From Xenopus tropicalis (lineage: Eukaryota; Chordata; Amphibia; Anura; Pipidae): 64,000 bases of DNA. Made by a program: the position numbers and the translations under genes. The notes under the pieces are model-generated. The model ran no database searches. It was not told the DNA's origin and saw only the letters and a program-made list of their open reading frames with translations. This document shows positions 8,271-46,563 of this stretch, one piece after another. The stretch is from contig NC_030679.2 of assembly GCF_000004195.4 (NCBI RefSeq), positions 19,046,712-19,110,711 of the forward strand, given 5' to 3'. Positions within the stretch are counted from its first letter, which is position 1; every line of letters starts with the position of its first letter.

Positions 8271-8915
8271 TAGAGATGTAGCGAACTGTTCGCCGGCGAA
8301 CTAATTCGCGCGAACATCGGGTGTTCGCAAGTCCGCAAATTCGCGAACTTTTCGTGATGTTCGCAATTTGGGTTCGCCGGCACCGAAAAAATCGCAAAAC
8401 TTACGATAACATTACGAATGCTCCGAAAAAGTCGCAAAACTTACGATAACGTTACGAATGCTCCGAAAAAGTCGCAAAACTTACGATAACGTTACGAATG
8501 CTTCGAAAAAGTCGCAAAACTTACGATAACGGTACGACTGCTCCGAAAAAGTCGCAAAACTTACGATAACGTTACGAATGCTCCGAAAAAGTCGCAAAAC
8601 TTACGATAACTTTACGAAAGCGCCGGAAATTACGAAAAAGTCGCAAAATTACCGATCATTTCGAAAAACAGCGTGTGTCAATTTTTCAGAGAAATTTTTG
8701 CTTGATCCCCCTCCTGCATGCCACTGTCCAGGTCGTGGCACCCTTTAAACAACTTTAAAATCAGTTTTCTGGCCAGAAATGGCTTTTCTAGGTTTTAAAG
8801 TTCGCCTTCCCATTGAAGTCTATGGGGTTCGCAAAGTTCGCGAATATTCGCAATTTTCGGCGGAAGTTCGCGAACAGGTTCGCGAACTTTTTTTTTGAGG
8901 TTCGCTACATCCCTA
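8271..8915 (-). mobile_element. short non-autonomous hAT derivative, copy 1
   Basis: The element runs from TAGAGATGTAGCGAACTG to GGTTCGCTACATCCCTA, 645 bp. A perfect 8-bp TSD, GTGGGCCT, lies at 8263-8270 and 8916-8923. Its left end matches the right end of the large hAT at 39310-46095 in reverse complement (GTTCGCCGGCGAACTAATTC, then CGCGCGAACATCGGGTG). Its right 200 bp match the large element's left end, including CTGGCCAGAAATGG and the GCATGCCACTGTCC block, so it is inverted relative to the parent. The middle is replaced by a 40-bp tandem repeat. It encodes nothing and would depend on transposase supplied in trans. Confidence 0.9.
8385..8624. repeat. 40-bp tandem repeat inside the short hAT
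   Basis: Six units start at 8385, 8425, 8465, 8505, 8545 and 8585. Each contains GAAAAAGTCGCAAAACTTAC followed by GATAACGTTACGAATGCTCC with a few substitutions. The array is CpG-bearing and occupies the place where the parent element carries its gene. A partial, diverged seventh unit follows to about 8660. Confidence 0.9.
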
Positions 8916-9030: not shown

Positions 9031-9414
9031 CAACCTTAGTGAGAAGGAGGGGTCATGATGACAAAAGATGAGAGGCTGGTTTGGCTGGATGGGGAAGGGT
9101 TGCCACCTTTGGGCAGCTTGAACTCTGGGTAGGGGAGTGGTGACATCACAGGGGAGGGGCAGTGACATCACTGGGTGGGGCGTCATAGTGACATCGAGGG
9201 CAGAACCATGACATCTCGGGGGCAGGACTATGCCATGGCAATCAGCAATTCGATGATGACTGCGCCACTCTGAGTGATGTCACTGACCCTCTCCTGTGAT
9301 GTCACCACTCCCCTACCCAGAGTTCAAGCTGCCCAAAGGTGGGAACCCTTCTCCATCCAGCCAAACCAGCCTCTCATCTTTTGTCATCATGACCCCTCCT
9401 TCTCACTAAGGTTG
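9031..9414. repeat. 140-bp inverted repeat with 104-bp spacer
   Basis: The left arm 9031-9170 and right arm 9275-9414 are near-perfect reverse complements. Each includes CCTTAGTGAGAAGGAGGGGT, GATGACAAAAGATGAGAGGC and GTGGTGACATCACAGG or complements. The two arms therefore give almost the same conceptual peptide from opposite strands, which explains the coding look; it is not evidence for a gene. It is probably the arms of a palindromic MITE. Confidence 0.8.
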
Positions 9415-21880: not shown

Positions 21881-22375
21881 TAGGGATGTAGCGAACATCG
21901 CCAAAAATGTTCGCGGACCCGTTCGCGGACTTTCGGCAAAACTCGCGAATATTCGCGAACTTTGCGAACCCCATAGACTTCAATGGGAAGGCGAACTTTA
22001 AAACCTAGAAAAGCCATTTCTGGCCAGAAAACTGATTTTAAAGTTGTTTAAAGGGTGCCACGACCTGGACAGTGGCATGCAGGAGGGGGATCAAGCAAAA
22101 ATTTCTCTGAAAAATACTTTGTAAAAAAACCGCCAAAAAAAAAAACGCCAAAAAAAAAACCGCCAAAAAATAACGAAAGAAAAAAAAAAAACGCCCAAAA
22201 AAAAACCGCCAAAAAATAACGAAAGAAAAAAAAAAAACGCCAAAAAAAAACGCCAAAAAAACCCGCGGCGAACCCAAAATGGCGAACATCGCCAAAAGTC
22301 CGCGAATTTGCGCGAACGCGAACACCCGATGTTCGCGCGAATTAGTTCGCCGGCGAACAGTTCGCTACATCTCTA
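21881..22375 (+). mobile_element. short non-autonomous hAT derivative, copy 2
   Basis: The element runs from TAGGGATGTAGCGAACAT to ACAGTTCGCTACATCTCTA, 495 bp. The octamer CACAGCAT is duplicated at 21873-21880 and 22376-22383. Its left 230 bp match the left end of the large hAT (GCGAACCCCATAGACTTCAA, CTGGCCAGAAAACTG, GACAGTGGCATGCAGGAGG) in the same orientation, and its right 60 bp match that element's right end. The centre (22120-22260) is a run of AACGCC/ACCGCC units embedded in A-tracts. There is no gene. Confidence 0.9.
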
Positions 22376-23266: not shown

Positions 23267-23480
23267 ACATGGAACTGGCACTGTATTCACCCTGCCATGT
23301 GTTCTGGGATATTATACATGAAACTGGCACTGTATTCACCCTGCCATGTATTCTATGGTAAATATACATGATTCATTTAGTGCCAGTTCCATGTATAACA
23401 CCCCAGAACATATGGCAGGATAAATACAGTGCCAGTTCCATGTATATTTACCATAGAATACATGGCAGGGTGAATACAGT
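23267..23480. repeat. compound direct-and-inverted repeat
   Basis: The core ACTGGCACTGTATTCACCCT occurs as a direct pair (about 23273 and 23323). It then occurs twice more in reverse complement (about 23405-23440 and 23465-23480, with AGTGCCAGTTCCATGTAT and GGCAGGGTGAATACAGT). The two halves form an inverted repeat about 100 bp per arm, each arm itself made of two units. Confidence 0.75.
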
Positions 23481-23645: not shown

Positions 23646-24178
23646 GGGGCACATTTACTAATCCACGAACGTCCGAAAAGCGTCCGAATGTGCTTTTTTC
23701 GTAATGATCGGTATTTTGCGATTTTTTCGTAAATTGTCGCAACATTTTCATACCCATTACGACTTGCTCGTAAATTGTCGCAACTTTTTTGTAGCCATTA
23801 CGACTTGCTTGTAAATTGTCGCAACTTTTTCGTAGCCATTACTACTTGCTCGTAAAATGTAGCGACTTTTTCGTAGCCGTCGTGCCGAGTACAAAAGTTT
23901 CGGATTCATTCAAGCTTCAGTATCGTGACTTTCCTTGGGCCAGGTTGGAGCTGCTGAGTGCCATTGAGTCCTATGGGAGGCTTCCAAAATCATGCAAAGT
24001 CGCAAAGGTTTGCCCGCCGTTTACAAGCGCTCAATACGAAAAAGTCGCGACAATATACGAGCAAGTCGTAATGGCTACAAAAAAGTCGCAACAATTTACG
24101 AAAAATCGCAAAATGTTCGTTTCCAATCCGATTTTTTCCCATTCGGGATTCGGATTCGTGGATTAGTAAATCAGCCCC
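23646..24178. mobile_element. GGGGCACATTTACTAATCC palindromic MITE
   Basis: The left end GGGGCACATTTACTAATCC pairs with the right end GGATTAGTAAATCAGCCCC. Both arms contain blocks such as CGTAAATTGTCGCAAC and GTAGCCATTACGACTTGC, the right arm in reverse complement (GCAAGTCGTAATGGCTAC, GTCGCAACAATTTACG). The left arm repeats the block three to four times. The spacer includes CTTGGGCCAGGTTGGAG. Related end sequence stands at 17754. The TSD is not clear (TAT on the left, TAA on the right). Confidence 0.7.
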
Positions 24179-36621: not shown

Positions 36622-37031
36622 AGGAACAGTAACACCAAAAAATGAAAGTGTATAAAAGTAACTAAAATATAATGTGCTGCTGCCCTGCACTGGTAAAAGT
36701 TGTGTGTTTATTTCAGAAAGTCTACTATAATTTATATAAATAAGCTGCTATGTAGCCATGGGGGCAGCCATTCAAAGGAGAAAAGGCACAGGCACATAGC
36801 AGATAAAACACTATTGTATTCTACAGAACTTATCTGTTATCTGCTATGTAACCTGTGCCTTTTCTCCTTTTTTCCAGCTTGAATGGCTGCCCCCGTGGCT
36901 ACACAGCAGCTTATTATATAAATTATAGTAGTGTTACTGTAGCAAACACACCAGTTTTACCAGTGCAGGGCAACAGTGCATTATATTTTTATTACTTTAA
37001 AGCTCTTTCATTTTTTGGTGTTACTGTTCCT
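36622..37031. mobile_element. T2-type (Kolobok) palindromic MITE
   Basis: TTAA at 36618-36621 and 37032-37035 flanks a 410-bp palindrome. The ends are AGGAACAGTAACACCAAAAA and its complement TTTTTGGTGTTACTGTTCCT. Arms of about 180 bp pair almost throughout, for example CCATGGGGGCAGCCATTCAA against TTGAATGGCTGCCCCCGTGG. The terminal sequence and TTAA target match the T2-MITE family described in Xenopus. Confidence 0.88.
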
Positions 37032-38771: not shown

Positions 38772-40055
38772 CTTTAGTGAATCTGCTGTTCCTTTTTAAG
38801 AACCACTGGTGACCAAAAATTGTAAAAGAAAATCTTTATAAGAGTTAGAGTTCAGCCTAGAGATCCTTTACCTCCACGATTTTGCAAGGGCCCAGCCCAG
38901 TGGCATATGTCAGTGCTTTACCTAAAGAGCGTAAAGAGTTAATATACAGTATCCTATATCTATAGTTCTACAGACACATTTATCAAACCTGAAACGTGTG
39001 TCAATTTGGCAGAACGTGTATGACTGCATTGAGCCATCTGTGCACTATCATGCATCTGAATCCTGACTCCGCTATGCAATTTTCTGCACTAGAACAAATC
39101 ATTGCAATGTGGAAAATCCAAACCGAGTGGTAAAAATGAACAAGGATAAATTAACCCCTCTGGTGTTATGGGCAACGCTGTTATATGCATCCTCCATTTA
39201 CTTAAGAGAGAAAAAACCGGACCAGCACAAGTCTCCAACAAACATATTCACAGCTGGTGTACATTTCACAATATCAATTATATATGTAGTAAACAGCACC
39301 ATTTGCATGTAGGGATGTAGCGAACCTTAAAAAAAATGTTCGCGAACTTTCGCCGAAAAGTGCGAACGTTCGCGAACTTTGCGAACCCCATAGACTTCAA
39401 TGGGAAGGCGAACTTTAAAACCTAGAAAAGCAATCTCTGGCCAGAAAACTGATTTTAAAGTTGTTTAAAGGGTGCCACGCCCTGGACAGTGGCATGCAGG
39501 AGGGGCATCAAGGGCAAAAATTTCTCTGAAAAATACGTTGTTGACACAGCGTTGCGTTTTGTGCTGTTAAGGGGAGAAAACACACTACATTCCTAAACTT
39601 ATGTAATAAACTGCTTTAAAAAGTCCGGCATCTACATTCCAATCAAGTCGTGTAAAGGTTACGGCCGGTTCACACGCAAAGACAAAACGCCGCGTTTACT
39701 GCAACGAAAAAAAACGCAAAAAGCTTTAATGATACTGTCAAGTGTGCGAATATTAGTTTTTACTAGTTGCTTGTCACCTCCAGGACGTTCGTCCCGTCGG
39801 TGGGAATATTTCTGTAGTGGTGTGTTTAGCAGTCACCGTGCTTGTGCGCACGTGCATGGTCAGGCAGAGGTAATTCAATGTACAGTAACGTGAACCAAAA
39901 AACACTGATTCTGCAGTGTGGGCCCAGGTTTGTCCTACCTTTTCGATCACCTGTGGTGACCATAAAAGATACGATTTTGCCGCCGTTGCAGAACCCTGAA
40001 AAATCAGGAATGTGTACATTCCTAAAAAATTATGGTTTTTTTGTTGCAGCCACTG

Positions 40056-41345
40056 AAGCACAGAGGACAGAAAAAATATGTTAGATAGATGGTATCATAA
40101 CCAATCCTGAGGCAGAACCTTTAAAAAATCGAAGATAGCGTACCAAGCACAGAAGACAGAAAAAATATCTTAGATAGATGGTATCATAACCATGCCCCAG
40201 GCAAACCCTTTCAAAGAACTAAGATAGGGTGACAACAAGCACAGAAGACATTAAAAACATCAAAGCTAGATGGTATCATAACCATGCCCCAGCCAAACCC
40301 TTTCAAAGAACTCAGATAGGGTGACAACAAGCACAGAAGACATTAAAAACATCAAAGCTAGATGGTATCATAACCATGCCCCAGCCAAACCCTTTCAAAA
40401 AACTCAGATAGGGTGACAACAAGCACAGAAGACATTAAAAACATCAAAGCTAGATGGTATAATAACCATGCCCCAGCCAAACCCTTTCAAAGAACTCAGA
40501 TAGGGTGACAACAAGCACAGAAGACATTAAAAACATCAAAGCTAGATGGTATCATAACCATGCCCCAGCCAAACCCTTTCAAAGAACTCAGATAGGGTGA
40601 CAACAAGCACAGAAGACATTAAAAACATCAAAGCTAGATGGTATCATAACCATGCCCCAGCCAAACCCTTTCAAAGAACTCAGATAGGGTGACAACAAGC
40701 ACAGAAGACATTAAAAACATCAAAGCTAGATGGTATCATAACCATGCCCCAGCCAAACCCTTTCAAAGAACTCAGATAGGGTGACAAGCACAGAAGACAT
40801 TAAAAACATCAAAGCTAGATGGTATCATAACCATGCCCCAGCCAAACCTTTTCAAAGAACTCAGATAGGGTGACAACAAGCACAGAAGACATTAAAAACA
40901 TCAAAGCTAGATGGTATCATAACCATGCCCCAGCCAAACCCTTTCAAAGAACTCAGATAGGGTGACAACAAGCACAGAAGACATTAAAAACATCAAAGCT
41001 AGATGGTATCATAACCATGCCCCAGCCAAACCCTTTCAAAGAACTCAGATAGGGTGACAACAAGCACAGAAGACATTAAAAACATCAAAGCTAGATGGTA
41101 TCATAACCATGCCCCAGCCAAACCCTTTCAAAGAACTCAGATAGGGTGACAACAAGCACAGAAGACATTAAAAACATCAAAGCTAGATGGTATCATAACC
41201 ATGCCCCAGCCAAACCCTTTCAAAGAACTCAGATAGGGTGACAACAAGCACAGAAGACATTAAAAACATCAAAGCTAGATGGTATCATAACCATGCCCCA
41301 GCCAAACCCTTTCAAAGAACTCAGATAGGGTGACAAGCACAGAAG
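40056..41345. repeat. 92-bp tandem array inside the hAT, 3' of transposase
   Basis: Units carry GCACAGAAGACATTAAAAAC, AAAGCTAGATGGTATCATAA, CCATGCCCCAGCCAAACCC and AACTCAGATAGGGTGACAAC. GACAAC starts at 40231, 40323, 40415, 40507, 40599 and 40691, giving a 92-bp period. Two more diverged units precede these (from 40056) and seven more follow, giving about 14 in all. Units at 40783 and 41332 share the same 3-bp deletion (GACAAGCAC). The units are otherwise almost identical, implying recent amplification or homogenisation. Confidence 0.95.
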
Positions 41346-41508
41346 AGTAGAAGAGAGAAAAATTCAGGATTTACCTGTCCAAAAAGTTTGGCTTACAATT
41401 AAGCCAGTAGGATTTGCACCCTAGTTTGTACGGTGATGGAGGAGGACGGTAAAGGACAGCTGTGTGTGGTGTCAAGCGGCATGCAGAGAAGGACAGCTGC
41501 ATGGGCAG

Positions 41509-42150
41509 TCAGAACAAGTCTTCCGGCGTGCAGTAACCCTCCGAGATCCATGCCTCATTCATTTTAATAAAGGTCAGGTAATCAACACTTTTGTGACCTA
41601 GGCGAGTTCTCTTCTCAGTTACAATCCCTCCTGCTGCACTAAAGGTCCTTTCTGAGAGGACACTTGAGGCAGGGCAAGACAACAGATTTATGGCAAATTG
41701 TGACAGCTCTGGCCACAGATCAAGCCTGCGCACCCAGTAGTCCAGGGGTTCATCGCTCCTCCGAGTGTCAATATCTGCAGTTAATGCCAGGTAGTCCGCT
41801 ACCTGCCGGTTGAGGCGTTCTCTGAGGGTGGATCCAGAAGGGTCCTGGCGCTGCCTTGGACTGAAAAAACTTTGCATGTCTGACGTTACAGAGTGGCCAA
41901 AGTGCATTGTCCTTGCAGGTGTGCTCGTGGGAGGATTACCGGCACCTCTGCCCCTGGAATGTGGAGTGACATCACCCTTAAAAGAATTGTACAACATGTT
42001 TTGCAGGCTGGTTTGGAAATGCAGCATCCTTTCGGACTTGTGGTACGTTGGTAACATTTCTGCCACTTTATGCTTGTAACGAGGGTCTAGTAGCGTTGCC
42101 ACCCAGTACAGGTCCTTCTCCTTAAGCCTCTTGATGCCTTCAACAGGCAT
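41509..42150 (-). CDS. hAT transposase, C-terminal part (dimerization domain)
   Basis: Of 213 codons, residues 11-27 read EKDLYWVATLLDPRYK, the conserved LDPR(Y/F)K segment of hAT transposases. Residues 133-200 form the hAT C-terminal dimerization domain: DEPLDYWVRRLDLWPELSQF, then LSCPASSVLSERTFSAAGG, then KRTRLGHKSVDYLTFIKMN. The glutamate of the SERTFS motif (residue 167) is probably the third catalytic carboxylate, by analogy with hAT enzymes. The frame overlaps the preceding one by about 60 bases with a one-base shift, so the methionine at 42150 is not a true start. The true protein reads through from 42087-43703. The C-terminus GYCTPEDLF and stop at 41509 look natural. Confidence 0.9.
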   Translation of the reverse strand: MPVEGIKRLKEKDLYWVATLLDPRYKHKVAEMLPTYHKSERMLHFQTSLQNMLYNSFKGDVTPHSRGRGAGNPPTSTPARTMHFGHSVTSDMQSFFSPRQRQDPSGSTLRERLNRQVADYLALTADIDTRRSDEPLDYWVRRLDLWPELSQFAINLLSCPASSVLSERTFSAAGGIVTEKRTRLGHKSVDYLTFIKMNEAWISEGYCTPEDLF

Positions 42151-43703
42151 GACAGCATGAAAGACCCCATTCTCACAAGGTTGGATGCAGAGGTATCCAT
42201 CTCCCCTTCCTCGTTATCAAGGACTACGTCCTCATCCACCACCGTCTCCTCCCCCCAGCCACGTACAAGACCAGGGCTCCACAAAAGGTGACCACAAGCC
42301 CCCTGGGAAGCCTGCTCCTGTTGGTCTTCTGCCTCCACAAAGCCACCTTCCTCCTCTGACTCCGCTTCTGACACCTCTCCCTGCGTTGCAGCAGGTGCCT
42401 GGGAACGTTCTGGTGATTCCGCCCAGAAATCAGGCTCTTGGTCACGCTGGTCTACAGCGTCATCTGTCACTCGTCGCACAGCACGCTCAAGAAAAAAAGC
42501 AAAGGGTATTAGGTCGCTGATGGTGCCTTCAGTGCGACTAACCATATTTGTGACCTCGTCAAAAGGGCGCATCAGCCTGCAGGCATCGCGCATAAGCACC
42601 CAGTAACGGGGGAAAAAAATCCCCAGCTCTGCAGATCCAGTCCTACCACCCAGTTCAAATAGGTATTCATTGATGGCTCTTTGTTGTTGCAGCAGACGTT
42701 CAAACATCATTAGCGTGGAATTCCAGCGAGTCTGGCTGTCGCAAATTAAACGCCTGACTGGCAAGTTGCGCTGAATGTCAGCAAGGCGTGCCATGGCTGT
42801 GTAGGAACGTCTGAAATGGCCAGACACCTTCCTGGACTGCCTGAGAATGTCCTGCAATCCTGGGTACTTCGAGACAAACCGTTGGACTATCAAATTTAAA
42901 ACATGTGCCATGCAGGGCACATGTGTTAAATTGCCCAGTCTCAGTGCTGCCAACAGATTGCTTCCGTTGTCACACACCACTTTTCCAATTTTCAGTTGGT
43001 GTGGGGTCAGCCACCGATCGGCCTGTGAGTGCAGAGATGACAGGAGTACAGATCTGGTATGGTTTCTACTTTCCAGGCACGTCATGCCCAAGACAGCATG
43101 ACAACGGCGTACCTGGCACGTCGAATAGCCTATGTGGAGCTGGGGGTGCACAGGTGTGGAGGAGGACACAGCAGCAGAGGAGGAAGAAGCCGAGGAAGAA
43201 GCCAAGTTAGAAGACGACTTAGAAGACGACTTAGAAGACGAGTTAGAGAGCAAAGGAGGAGTAGAGGTGGTGGCAGACCCGCATGCAACCCGTGGCAGTG
43301 ACACCAACTCCACTGTTGTTGAACCACGCATTCCCTGCTTCCCAGCCATCACCAGGTTCACCCAGTGGGCAGTGTAGGTGACATACCTGCCCTGACCATG
43401 CTTGGAGGACCATGTGTCAGTAGTCATATGGACCTTTGCCCCAACACTAAATGACAGAGATGCGGTGATTTGGCTCTGCACATGCTGGTACAGGTGTGGT
43501 ATTCCCTTCTGTGAAAAAAAATTGCGGCTGGGTACCTTCCACTGCGGTGTCCCAATTGCTACAAATTGGTGGAAAGCCTCAGAGTCCACCAGCTGGTATG
43601 GTAAAAGCTGGCGGGCTAAGAGTGCAGACAATCCAGCTGTCAGACGCCGGGCAAGGGGATGACTCGGAGGCATTGGTTTCTTACGCTCAAACATGGCCCT
43701 CAC
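42087..43703 (-). CDS. hAT transposase, catalytic core part
   Basis: 538 codons are open from a GTG that is not a real start, since the frame is already open upstream through a Pro/Ser linker (PSQPPSTPPSSSCSSAPS). Landmarks are MTTDTWSSKHGQ with Asp96, VVCDNGSNLLAAL with Asp245 (first and second acidic residues of the RNase H-like core), HVPCMAHVLNLIVQ (conserved hAT Cys/His box) and SQTRWNSTLMMFERLL (conserved Trp). A serine-rich insert at residues 153-182 includes an SSSK repeat. An acidic tail (EAESEEEGG, DEDVVLDNEEGEMD) precedes the end. The frame is lost at about 42105-42185, where the adjacent frame takes over with VATLLDPRYK. A single base change in length would explain this. Confidence 0.9.
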   Translation of the reverse strand: MRAMFERKKPMPPSHPLARRLTAGLSALLARQLLPYQLVDSEAFHQFVAIGTPQWKVPSRNFFSQKGIPHLYQHVQSQITASLSFSVGAKVHMTTDTWSSKHGQGRYVTYTAHWVNLVMAGKQGMRGSTTVELVSLPRVACGSATTSTPPLLSNSSSKSSSKSSSNLASSSASSSSAAVSSSTPVHPQLHIGYSTCQVRRCHAVLGMTCLESRNHTRSVLLSSLHSQADRWLTPHQLKIGKVVCDNGSNLLAALRLGNLTHVPCMAHVLNLIVQRFVSKYPGLQDILRQSRKVSGHFRRSYTAMARLADIQRNLPVRRLICDSQTRWNSTLMMFERLLQQQRAINEYLFELGGRTGSAELGIFFPRYWVLMRDACRLMRPFDEVTNMVSRTEGTISDLIPFAFFLERAVRRVTDDAVDQRDQEPDFWAESPERSQAPAATQGEVSEAESEEEGGFVEAEDQQEQASQGACGHLLWSPGLVRGWGEETVVDEDVVLDNEEGEMDTSASNLVRMGSFMLSCLLKASRGLRRRTCTGWQRY

Positions 43704-43767
43704 AGAAACTTGGCTGGGGGCAGATGAGCAGGAACTGGAAGGCGGAGTGGAGGGTGGTTGAGACGGG

Positions 43768-44703
43768 TCAAGGACAGCAGAGGTAGAGCAGTAAGATGCT
43801 GGAGCAGAAGGAGGGTGGCTTAGCTTGGCTGCTGCCTTTGAGGTGTTGCTCCCATAGTGCTTTGTGTTTGGCGTTCATGTGCCTTCGCATAGCAGTTGTA
43901 CCTAAGTGGGTGTTGGGCTTCCCAAGACTCAGTTTCTGACTGCACTCATTGCAAATTACAGCGCTTTTGTCAGAGGCACACACATTAAAAAAATGCCACA
44001 CTGCTGAGCCTTTTGATGTGGGCTTTCTAGCAGTAACAGTAGAAGTTGGCGGGTGCGTTGGCTGGCTGACCACAGGTGCCGATTCATGTTGTTGCCCTAC
44101 TGTTCCCTGGGAGCTGTCCCTGCTTCTTCTAAGTCTTATTCTCCTCCTGCCTCTCTGACTCTCCGTCTCTCCATCTGAACTATCCTCCTCTTGCTCTCTT
44201 CTTGTGGGCACCCACAAAATATCACTCTCCTCATCATCATTCTCCTCAGATGCATCAATTTCTTCTGACAGCTCACAGAAGACAGCAGCAGCGGGGACCT
44301 CATCACACCTTATGTCCATCTCTGTTGTGTTGCCTGCCTGAATTATGATATCTGGTGTAACGTCCGTATCTCCTTCATCTTCTTCTGGCAATAATGGTTG
44401 CGCATCACTCAGTTCAACAAACTCATGAGTAAATAACTCCTCTGACTCCAGTGAAGAAGGGGCGGCGGTGGCGGAGAAAGTGGTACGTGGGGTGCCCATA
44501 GCAGAGGAGGATGAGGATGTTGTGGCAAAGTTAGAAACAGTAGAGGATGGGGTGTGCTGTGTAAGCCAGTCAACTACCTCTTCAGCATTTTGGGAGTTCA
44601 GGGTAAGTGCCTTCGGAAAACTGGGCAATTTCCTAGGGCCACAGGATATCATAGCAGCACGGCCCCTAGTGCCTCTGCGTGGCGGCCTGCCTTTGCCTGG
44701 CAT
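43768..44703 (-). CDS. hAT transposase, N-terminal part with BED zinc finger
   Basis: 311 codons start at ATG 44703 (MPGKGRPPRRGTRGR, basic). An AEEVVDWLTQH segment, a Ser/Thr tract and a strongly acidic region (100-180) follow. A basic patch (RGRRRIRLRRSR, 184-195) precedes a BED-type zinc finger at 229-280: SKGSAVWHFF, Cys251-x2-Cys254, and His275-x4-His280. BED fingers bind DNA in many hAT transposases. After residue 280 the other frame reads on in a linker (GSNTSKAAAKLSHPPSAP), while this frame runs into KALWEQHLKG and a stop. A single-base frameshift near 43850 therefore separates it from the core. The start lies about 40 bp downstream of the 168-bp array. Confidence 0.88.
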   Translation of the reverse strand: MPGKGRPPRRGTRGRAAMISCGPRKLPSFPKALTLNSQNAEEVVDWLTQHTPSSTVSNFATTSSSSSAMGTPRTTFSATAAPSSLESEELFTHEFVELSDAQPLLPEEDEGDTDVTPDIIIQAGNTTEMDIRCDEVPAAAVFCELSEEIDASEENDDEESDILWVPTRREQEEDSSDGETESQRGRRRIRLRRSRDSSQGTVGQQHESAPVVSQPTHPPTSTVTARKPTSKGSAVWHFFNVCASDKSAVICNECSQKLSLGKPNTHLGTTAMRRHMNAKHKALWEQHLKGSSQAKPPSFCSSILLLYLCCP

Positions 44704-44740
44704 TTTTTTTATTTTTACAAAACAACAACAACTTGGGTGA

Positions 44741-45630
44741 TGTTTTTGGACACGGAGTTATTATTGTTATTTAGACAGATTGTGAAAAAGCTCAGACAGC
44801 TAGGTGGCACTTGGTTGCAGACACCGGGCAACAAGGCCTGCAAGGGCAACGTATACAGTAGTGGATACGGAATATATTATTGCTGGTGGAAAACCGTCAC
44901 TCAGGTTGTGTTTCTGGACACGGAATTATTATTGTTATTTAGACAGATTGTGAAAAAGCTCAGACAGCTAGGTGGCACTTGGTTGCAGACACCGGGCAAC
45001 AAGGCCTGCAAGGGCAACGTATACAGTAGTGGATACGGAATATATTATTGCTGGTGGAAAACCGTCACTCAGGTTGTGTTTCTGGACACGGAATTATTAT
45101 TGTAATTTAGACAGATTGTGAAAAAGCTCACACAGCTAGGTGGCACTTGGTTGCAGACACCGGGCAACAAGGCCTGCAAGGGCAACGTATACAGTAGTGG
45201 ATACGGAATATATTATTGCTGGTGGAAAACCGTCACTCAGGTTGTGTTTCTGGACACGGAATTATTATTGTAATTTAGACAGATTGTGAAAAAGCTCACA
45301 CAGCTAGGTGGCACTTGGTTGCAGACACCGGGCAACAAGGCCTGCAAGGGCAACGTATACAGTAGTGGATACGGAATATATTATTGCTGGTGGAAAACCG
45401 TCACTCAGGTTGTGTTTCTGGACACGGAATTATTATTGTTATTTAGACAGATTGTGAAAAAGCTCACACAGCTAGGTGGCACTTGGTTGCAGACACCGGG
45501 CAACAAGGCCTGCAAGGGCAACGTATACAGTAGTGGATACGGAATATATTATTGCTGGTGGAAAACCGTCACTCAGGTTGTGTTTCTGGACACGGAATTA
45601 TTATTGTTATTTAGACAAATTGTTATTTAG
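44741..45630. repeat. 168-bp tandem array upstream of the transposase start
   Basis: GGACACGG recurs at 44748, 44916, 45084, 45252, 45420 and 45588, exactly 168 bp apart, giving five full units and a partial sixth. Units carry GACAGATTGTGAAAAAGCTC, GGCACTTGGTTGCAGACACC, GCAAGGGCAACGTATACAG and ATTGCTGGTGGAAAACCGTC. The period is a multiple of three, so a plus-strand frame stays open except where TTGTTATTTAG is TTGTAATTTAG in two units. It probably has a regulatory or structural role, not a coding one. Confidence 0.95.
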
Positions 45631-45640
45631 ACAAAATATA

Positions 45641-45815
45641 CAGAGCAGTAGAAAGTAGATTACTAGCCAGAAAAACTACTTAAACTCTGCCTCAAAATAA
45701 ATACACAGCTCCTCAGTCCTCTCCCCACACAAATACAGAGCAGTAGAAAGTAGATTACTAGCCAGAAAAACTACTTAAACTCTCCTTCAAATGAATACAC
45801 AGCTCTCTCCCTACA
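45641..45815. repeat. 95-bp tandem duplication in the hAT right arm
   Basis: CAGAGCAGTAGAAAGTAGAT begins at 45641 and again at 45736. Both copies continue with TACTAGCCAGAAAAACTACT and TAAACTCT, then diverge slightly. Confidence 0.9.
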
Positions 45816-46563
45816 CTATCTCTTCAAGCACACACAGGCAGAATGTAAAATGGCTGCTGGGCTTCGGTTTATATATGGAAGGGAGTGGTCCAAGGGGGGG
45901 GGGGTGGCCCAGGAGGGAGAGCTGCCTGATTGGCTGCCATGTATCTGCTGGTTTGGGGTGAGAGGTCAAAATTTCGCGCCAGCTAAGGCGAACCCAAATG
46001 GCGAACATACACCGAAAGTTCGCGAACTTCCGCGTTCGCGAACACCCGATGTTCGCGCGAATTAGTTCGCCGGCGAACAGTTCGCTACATCCCTATTTGC
46101 ATGCAATAAGATTAAAAACCCTTTATTCCATGGCTATATCCTGGATAGTACTATTGCATCCAAATGGTGTTGTTTACTACATATATAATCCTCCATTTAT
46201 TTATCATAGTAGTCTGGAACCAAGTCTTTTGCTAGGTTGCCAATAGAGCCACTTTACATTTCCACAACCAGAGGTAAGCATTAAAAATAGGACCATTGTG
46301 ACAATCATTGCACATTCCTCTCCCACTGTTCTTGGGGCCCGGCAGTTTTTTTCACATATGTAATACAATTGCACCTGTACTGTGGGTCTCTTTTGTCCCA
46401 TGGTTCTGTGCTTTTACTTCTGGCTATTCAGTAGAACAGACAAAGTGCAATGATTATTATTTCAGTATATCCTTAAAGCCGACACAGGGTGCTCATCGTT
46501 AACTCTTATTTGCTCACTTGTTTGTGTTTATTTTCTTCCCTATATTTTTCTTGTTTTCCTCAG

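Follow-up and report, generated by a model that had tools for sequence, protein, structure and literature searches.

A recently inserted full-length hAT transposon and its family in Xenopus tropicalis

A 64,000-nucleotide stretch of Xenopus tropicalis DNA (contig NC_030679.2, positions 19,046,712 to 19,110,711; hereafter the window) contains a hAT transposon of 6,786 bp at 39310-46095. We consider it almost certain that this element represents, at full length, a young hAT family of the Ac type, and that it was inserted into an older dispersed inverted repeat less than ~1 million years ago and has since been broken. The direct evidence consists of the element's ends, its target-site duplication (TSD), paralogous empty sites, the protein domains, the fold modelled for a closely related transposase and the low divergence among the sampled copies.

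Ends, insertion site and superfamily

The element is bounded by the following features:

39302..39309, no strand: left TSD TTTGCATG, identical to the octamer at 46096-46103; the junction is spanned by paralogous empty sites
39310..39325, plus strand: left terminal inverted repeat (TIR) TAGGGATGTAGCGAAC, found by tip matching, exact
46080..46095, minus strand: right TIR, found by tip matching, exact
46096..46103, no strand: right TSD TTTGCATG, an exact copy of the left one

The original prediction of a complete hAT element with an exact TSD stands at these coordinates: the flanking octamers are identical, and the 16-bp TIR is exact at both ends. With up to three mismatches allowed, the tip is matched six times in the window, where 0.23 matches are expected from shuffled sequence; two of the six belong to the large element and two to each of two short copies. 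The empty site was reconstructed by fusing both flanks around a single TTTGCATG, which yields an imperfect inverted repeat with arms of ~38 bp. Compared with its own genome, the reconstructed sequence gave 27 matches, four representing the locus itself and 23 lying elsewhere. Of these 23, 19 (hand count from the match table) cross the junction and extend 20 bp or more to either side of it, at 73-88% identity. Since these relatives span the junction, the element is a genuine insertion, and its target is an older dispersed repeat, relatives of whose unoccupied site exist elsewhere in the genome. The interrupted inverted repeat is still recognizable around the element as arms at 39277-39309 and 46157-46189, which are 94% complementary; the TSD lies within one arm. 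Chance pairing of the TIRs is contradicted by the TSDs and the empty sites and was rejected: the element is a real hAT insertion.

Elements of the hAT superfamily are described as having TIRs of 10-25 bp and a usual length of 2.5-5 kb (PMC3942097). The TIR found here is short (16 bp) and exact, an 8-bp TSD flanks the window element, both short copies and 12 of 14 sampled tip pairs (see below), and the transposase has a dimerisation domain, a BED finger and an RNase H-like core with the Asp-Asp-Glu (DDE) triad. The length of 6,786 bp exceeds the usual range, which is not a defining limit, largely because of tandem arrays and a long gene. The target consensus given for the Ac family is nTnnnnAn (PMC8961557). 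Across 20 TSDs, T occupies position 2 in 18 and A occupies position 7 in 12; both are present in 10 and at least one in all 20 (pairs L009, L022 and L059/L060, which have no TSD, were excluded). The target preference fits the Ac type. A Buster-type preference was looked for and not found; one of the 20 TSDs has a TA centre.

Transposase gene, intact copies and age

The transposase gene of the window copy lies on the minus strand in three pieces:

43768..44703, minus strand: piece 1, with the start codon and BED zinc finger (~43861-44007), from Pfam and open frames
42087..43766, minus strand: piece 2, the RNase H-like core with the Asp motifs TTDTW (43410-43424) and CDNGSN (42957-42974), from profile alignment
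41509..42183, minus strand: piece 3, with the hAT dimerisation domain (~41560-41757) and the Glu motif SERTFS (41638-41655), from Pfam and profile alignment

Pfam identifies zf-BED (PF02892, E 2e-7) and Dimer_Tnp_hAT (PF05699, E 6.9e-17). In a profile alignment to Hermes, the hAT transposase of Musca domestica, the catalytic D-D-E residues (which we take to be D180, D248 and E572) align with TTDTW, CDNGSN and SERTFS; a second comparison also gave the alignment of CDNGSN and SERTFS. The modelled fold of a close relative of the transposase is Hermes-like at ~20% identity over the core, in a model where 439 of 1,082 residues have a predicted local distance difference test score (pLDDT) below 50, with long low-confidence stretches. 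The minus-strand gene with its BED finger, catalytic residues and dimerisation domain had been predicted correctly, but no uninterrupted transposase is present in the window copy. Its gene is split because of two frame-breaking deletions, 2 bp between pieces 1 and 2 and 7 bp between pieces 2 and 3, both private to the window copy among 39 copies compared. Introns were rejected as the cause of the split, since other copies read through the same positions uninterrupted.

The family was surveyed in a genome assembly of 1.45 Gb in 167 contigs. The 16-mer tip gave 1,861 + 1,939 matches, and its reversed control gave none. Fourteen convergent tip pairs, 2.6-8.7 kb apart, were taken from 100 listed tip matches, all on one contig, at the copy-dense end of C1. 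Twelve are copies with perfect TSDs, in which the exactness of the tips is by selection, the exact tip being the search pattern; the remaining two (L009 and L022) have no TSD, contain parts of short copies and look like composites. The termini therefore do co-occur in other copies, as anticipated, but their spacing is not fixed at 6.8 kb: owing to variable internal arrays and deletions, the copies measure 2,634 to 8,657 bp. The gene DNA stretches of the sampled copies are 94-99% identical to those of the window copy. Left-end and right-end variants are combined differently among copies L010-L021, and L019 joins the left end of the window copy to the other right end, a pattern that suggests recombination between subfamilies. 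A 24-mer at the second catalytic Asp has 335 genome matches with at most one mismatch. Among the matches listed on C1 (217 Mb), the 56 exact core words are unevenly spread, with 19 in the first 10 Mb and 12 at 85-91 Mb; one end of the chromosome and one interior block are thus rich in copies.

One of the 12 tip-selected copies, L016, has an unbroken transposase frame of 1,070 residues. A genome search with its protein produced 2,119 first-look candidates. Scoring was applied to 43, and 42 of these are full-length matches, 32 of them without a stop (hand count). The 30 coding copies fetched, the best scoring of the 2,119 first-look candidates, include 24 with an open frame, encoding proteins of 1064-1081 residues. 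TTDTW and SERTFS are kept in all 30 and CDNGSN in 29. Two copies, L016 and L049, each combine both ends, a TSD and an uninterrupted transposase, the type of copy that the original prediction had proposed to look for. The family, judged by these sequences, is probably autonomous.

Mean pairwise identity among the 30 coding copies is 99.37%, and the closest pairs differ at 4 sites. At the substitution rate published for Xenopus, 3.0-3.2e-9 per site and year (PMC9250109), this identity corresponds to ~1 million years; as the 30 copies are the best-scoring part of the family, the ages apply to its youngest layer. Relative to 39 other copies, 3,192 coding positions of the window copy include 6 substitutions private to it, equivalent to at most ~0.6 million years; in coding sequence it is 99.53% identical to the sampled copy nearest to it. 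Together with the perfect TSD, these values support the recent insertion that had been proposed.

Several observations weigh against this picture of a young family with working genes. The identity and intactness of the 30 coding copies are biased upwards by their selection as best-scoring, and the window copy, its gene being broken, is not itself a transposase source. A frame-breaking indel or stop is found in 11 of 12 coding copies compared, the window copy included (L021, mostly deleted, was left out). The ratio of nonsynonymous to synonymous substitution rates (dN/dS), pooled among 24 open copies, is 0.60 for shared changes and 0.72 for single changes; measured against L016, individual copies give values between 0.35 and 1.23. 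These ratios are fairly high, and the evidence of selection is therefore weak. The analysis showed neither excision nor a transcript, a protein or an insertion polymorphism.

The same pooled dN/dS and the broken frames in the window copy and the 11 others, which were chosen by tips alone, would also be expected of an extinct family that burst ~1 million years ago and whose open frames survive for want of decay time. We regard extinction as a serious possibility, if somewhat short of an even one. Against it, two of the four copies checked against 39 others, L024 and L028, are free of private substitutions over 3,219 sites (the other two have 2 and 5), and the four-site differences between the closest pairs imply that transposition took place no more than a few hundred thousand years ago. 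Copy divergence indicates that the family has moved very recently, and it may be moving at present.

Relatives and known systems

The closest named protein, from X. tropicalis, aligns with 31% of the intact transposase used as query, at 96% identity. It is followed by named proteins from Leptobrachium, Lithobates, Rana and Hyla (36-53% identity, in some cases for only part of the query); others range over 31-83%. A tree built from 25 of 61 available proteins, with two long-branched outgroups, places the frog transposons in one clade adjoining the ZBED6/ZBED6CL genes; a sister relationship between this clade and ZBED6 is a lead only. ZBED6 and ZBED6CL (ZBEDX) are reported as domesticated genes (PMC3606216). 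They resemble the frog element in having BED and hAT domains and in their neighbouring position in the tree, whereas two frog ZBEDX-type proteins (P0023 and P0042) are without the first two catalytic Asp residues, which the transposon keeps. A bat ZBED6 (P0061) keeps all three catalytic residues, and the generalization that transposons keep the triad and domesticated genes lose it was rejected on this ground.

The nearest named family, by description alone, is hAT-10 of X. tropicalis. The passages of PMC9250109 that concern it describe one BED zinc-finger transposase of 1033 residues, name hAT-10 as the source of exon 4 of the sex-determining gene dm-W in X. laevis, and give hundreds of copies of hAT-10-like transposases in the non-caecilian amphibians examined. 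That the window element is a copy of this Repbase family is conceivable, as both belong to the hAT superfamily and encode one BED transposase of just over 1,000 residues, but we hold the identification to be doubtful: the 24 open copies encode 1064-1081 residues, a difference of 31-48, and the TIRs given for the X. laevis relatives are 14 bp (PMC9250109) against 16 here, all of this being a comparison of descriptions only. Searches of the open-licence PubMed Central literature did not turn up the sequence of the window element; the nearest description they gave is that of hAT-10.

Hermes differs in its core (~20% identity) and in its subterminal word, AAGT in place of GCGAAC; the window family has transposases of ~1,070 residues and internal tandem arrays. 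Maize Ac/Ds, with TAGGGATG-like tips, offers a parallel in its autonomous element accompanied by a mixed set of short elements related to it chiefly by their ends, but is unlike the window family in sequence, size and host. A more ambitious proposal, that the family is mobile today with at least dozens of intact ~1,070-residue transposases and belongs to an anuran lineage sister to ZBED6/ZBED6CL, appears unlikely to us in this full form.

Subterminal repeats, internal arrays and short copies

The remaining features of the element and its short relatives are:

39320..39413, no strand: left subterminal GCGAAC/GTTCGC repeats, with palindromic GTTCGCGAAC at 39338-39347 and 39368-39377, from a 6-mer count
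45988..46085, no strand: right subterminal GCGAAC/GTTCGC repeats, including the palindromes GTTCGCCGGCGAAC and two GTTCGCGAAC, from a 6-mer count
40056..41336, no strand: tandem array, 92-bp unit x 14; 0-18 units in 13 copies compared
44741..45623, no strand: tandem array, 168-bp unit x 5.3, upstream of the transposase start, from array detection
45638..45805, no strand: third short array with ~95-bp spacing, 2 copies in the window element and more in other copies, from repeat comparison
45868..45876, minus strand: TATA-like box ATATATAAA, putative promoter of the transposase transcript, from a motif match
8271..8915, minus strand: short non-autonomous relative, TSD GTGGGCCT, interior 40-bp array, from tips, TSD and alignment
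21881..22375, plus strand: short non-autonomous relative, TSD CACAGCAT, interior A-rich 46-bp array, from tips, TSD and alignment

GCGAAC/GTTCGC 6-mers occur 50 times in the window, 46 of them inside the 110-bp ends of the three elements. Several are palindromic, and their offsets are unequal between the left and right ends. The BED domains of Hermes are reported to bind a quasi-palindrome of asymmetrically placed subterminal repeats (PMC10368747), and the GCGAAC/GTTCGC repeats are likely BED binding sites by analogy. The 168-bp array has 1-11 units (each of at least 80% length) across 13 copies compared, the window element included. Near the right end, TATATAAA is located 217-239 bp from the tip in 17 of 18 copies and AGCCAATC is present in nine. 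A CCAAT stands on the minus strand at ~45933; it was rejected as a conserved promoter part because only nine of the 18 copies have one, and the TATA-like box alone is therefore proposed in that role. No RNA gene was found in the window at Rfam gathering thresholds.

In the favoured mechanism, the element entered the older dispersed inverted-repeat sequence by cut-and-paste less than ~1 million years ago, and small deletions have broken its transposase gene. The BED finger would bind the palindromic subterminal repeats, the RNase H-like DDE core would cut at the TAGGG tips, and the cut ends would be joined to an 8-bp staggered target with the preference nTnnnnAn. Transposase would be supplied by intact copies elsewhere and could mobilise broken and short copies in trans.

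Each of the two short copies is flanked by its own perfect 8-bp TSD. They share with the large element the left ~235 bp and the right ~109 bp at 87-91% identity; the original suggestion was that the large element was their likely source. Over the left 235 bp, however, identity is 94% between the two short copies and 87-90% between either of them and the large element, and their interiors match neither the large element nor one another. In neither do the interior breakpoints join stretches of the large element at near 100% identity, a structure that would have favoured such an origin. Their right tip is TAGAG, that of the large element TAGGG. In the first 20.5 Mb of C1, all 36 adjacent exact tip pairs less than 1.5 kb apart join TAGGG to TAGAG (the pairs are defined by tips alone, and two are only 55 and 182 bp), as does one further pair of 1,722 bp. 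The 17 pairs of at least 2.5 kb comprise 13 with TAGGG at both ends and 4 mixed ones; three of these four have perfect TSDs, and an exact core word occurs in two of those. In this sample 70 of the 178 exact termini have no exact partner and were unused. Genome-wide, the 23-base TAGAG right end has 4,263 matches. The tip pairing points to two sister lineages, with the short copies belonging to the TAGAG lineage. An origin of the short copies by internal deletion of the large element is highly improbable, long TAGAG-tip copies being better parents; the sequences indicate that they are not its products. The family transposase may nonetheless move them in trans.

The 40-bp array of the short copy at 8271-8915 is similar to part of the tandem array in a different inverted-repeat element (23646-24178), with 90% identity along 42 bp and 72-76% along longer segments; the short copy looks as though it had picked up filler belonging to another family of repeats. 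Other repeats in the window include a 410-bp palindromic element at 36622-37031 with TTAA flanks and AGGAACAGTAACAC ends, similar to the T2 miniature inverted-repeat transposable elements (MITEs) of Xenopus, and palindromic repeats at 9039-9406 and 23286-23474 with TA flanks and perfect 14-bp ends, perhaps also MITEs.

The element is ordinary in kind, and useful as a member of a recently active, probably autonomous vertebrate hAT family. The contribution of coding sequence by hAT-10 to dm-W of X. laevis, as described in PMC9250109, makes the fate of such ends of wider interest. With 335 core-word matches, 32 stop-free transposases among 42 and a youngest layer of ~1 million years, current activity, regulation and cross-mobilisation are directly testable. 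Should the family prove mobile and sister to ZBED6/ZBED6CL, it would represent a still-living relative, with its catalytic residues complete, of the transposon ancestral to these regulators, and its arrays may regulate its own promoter.
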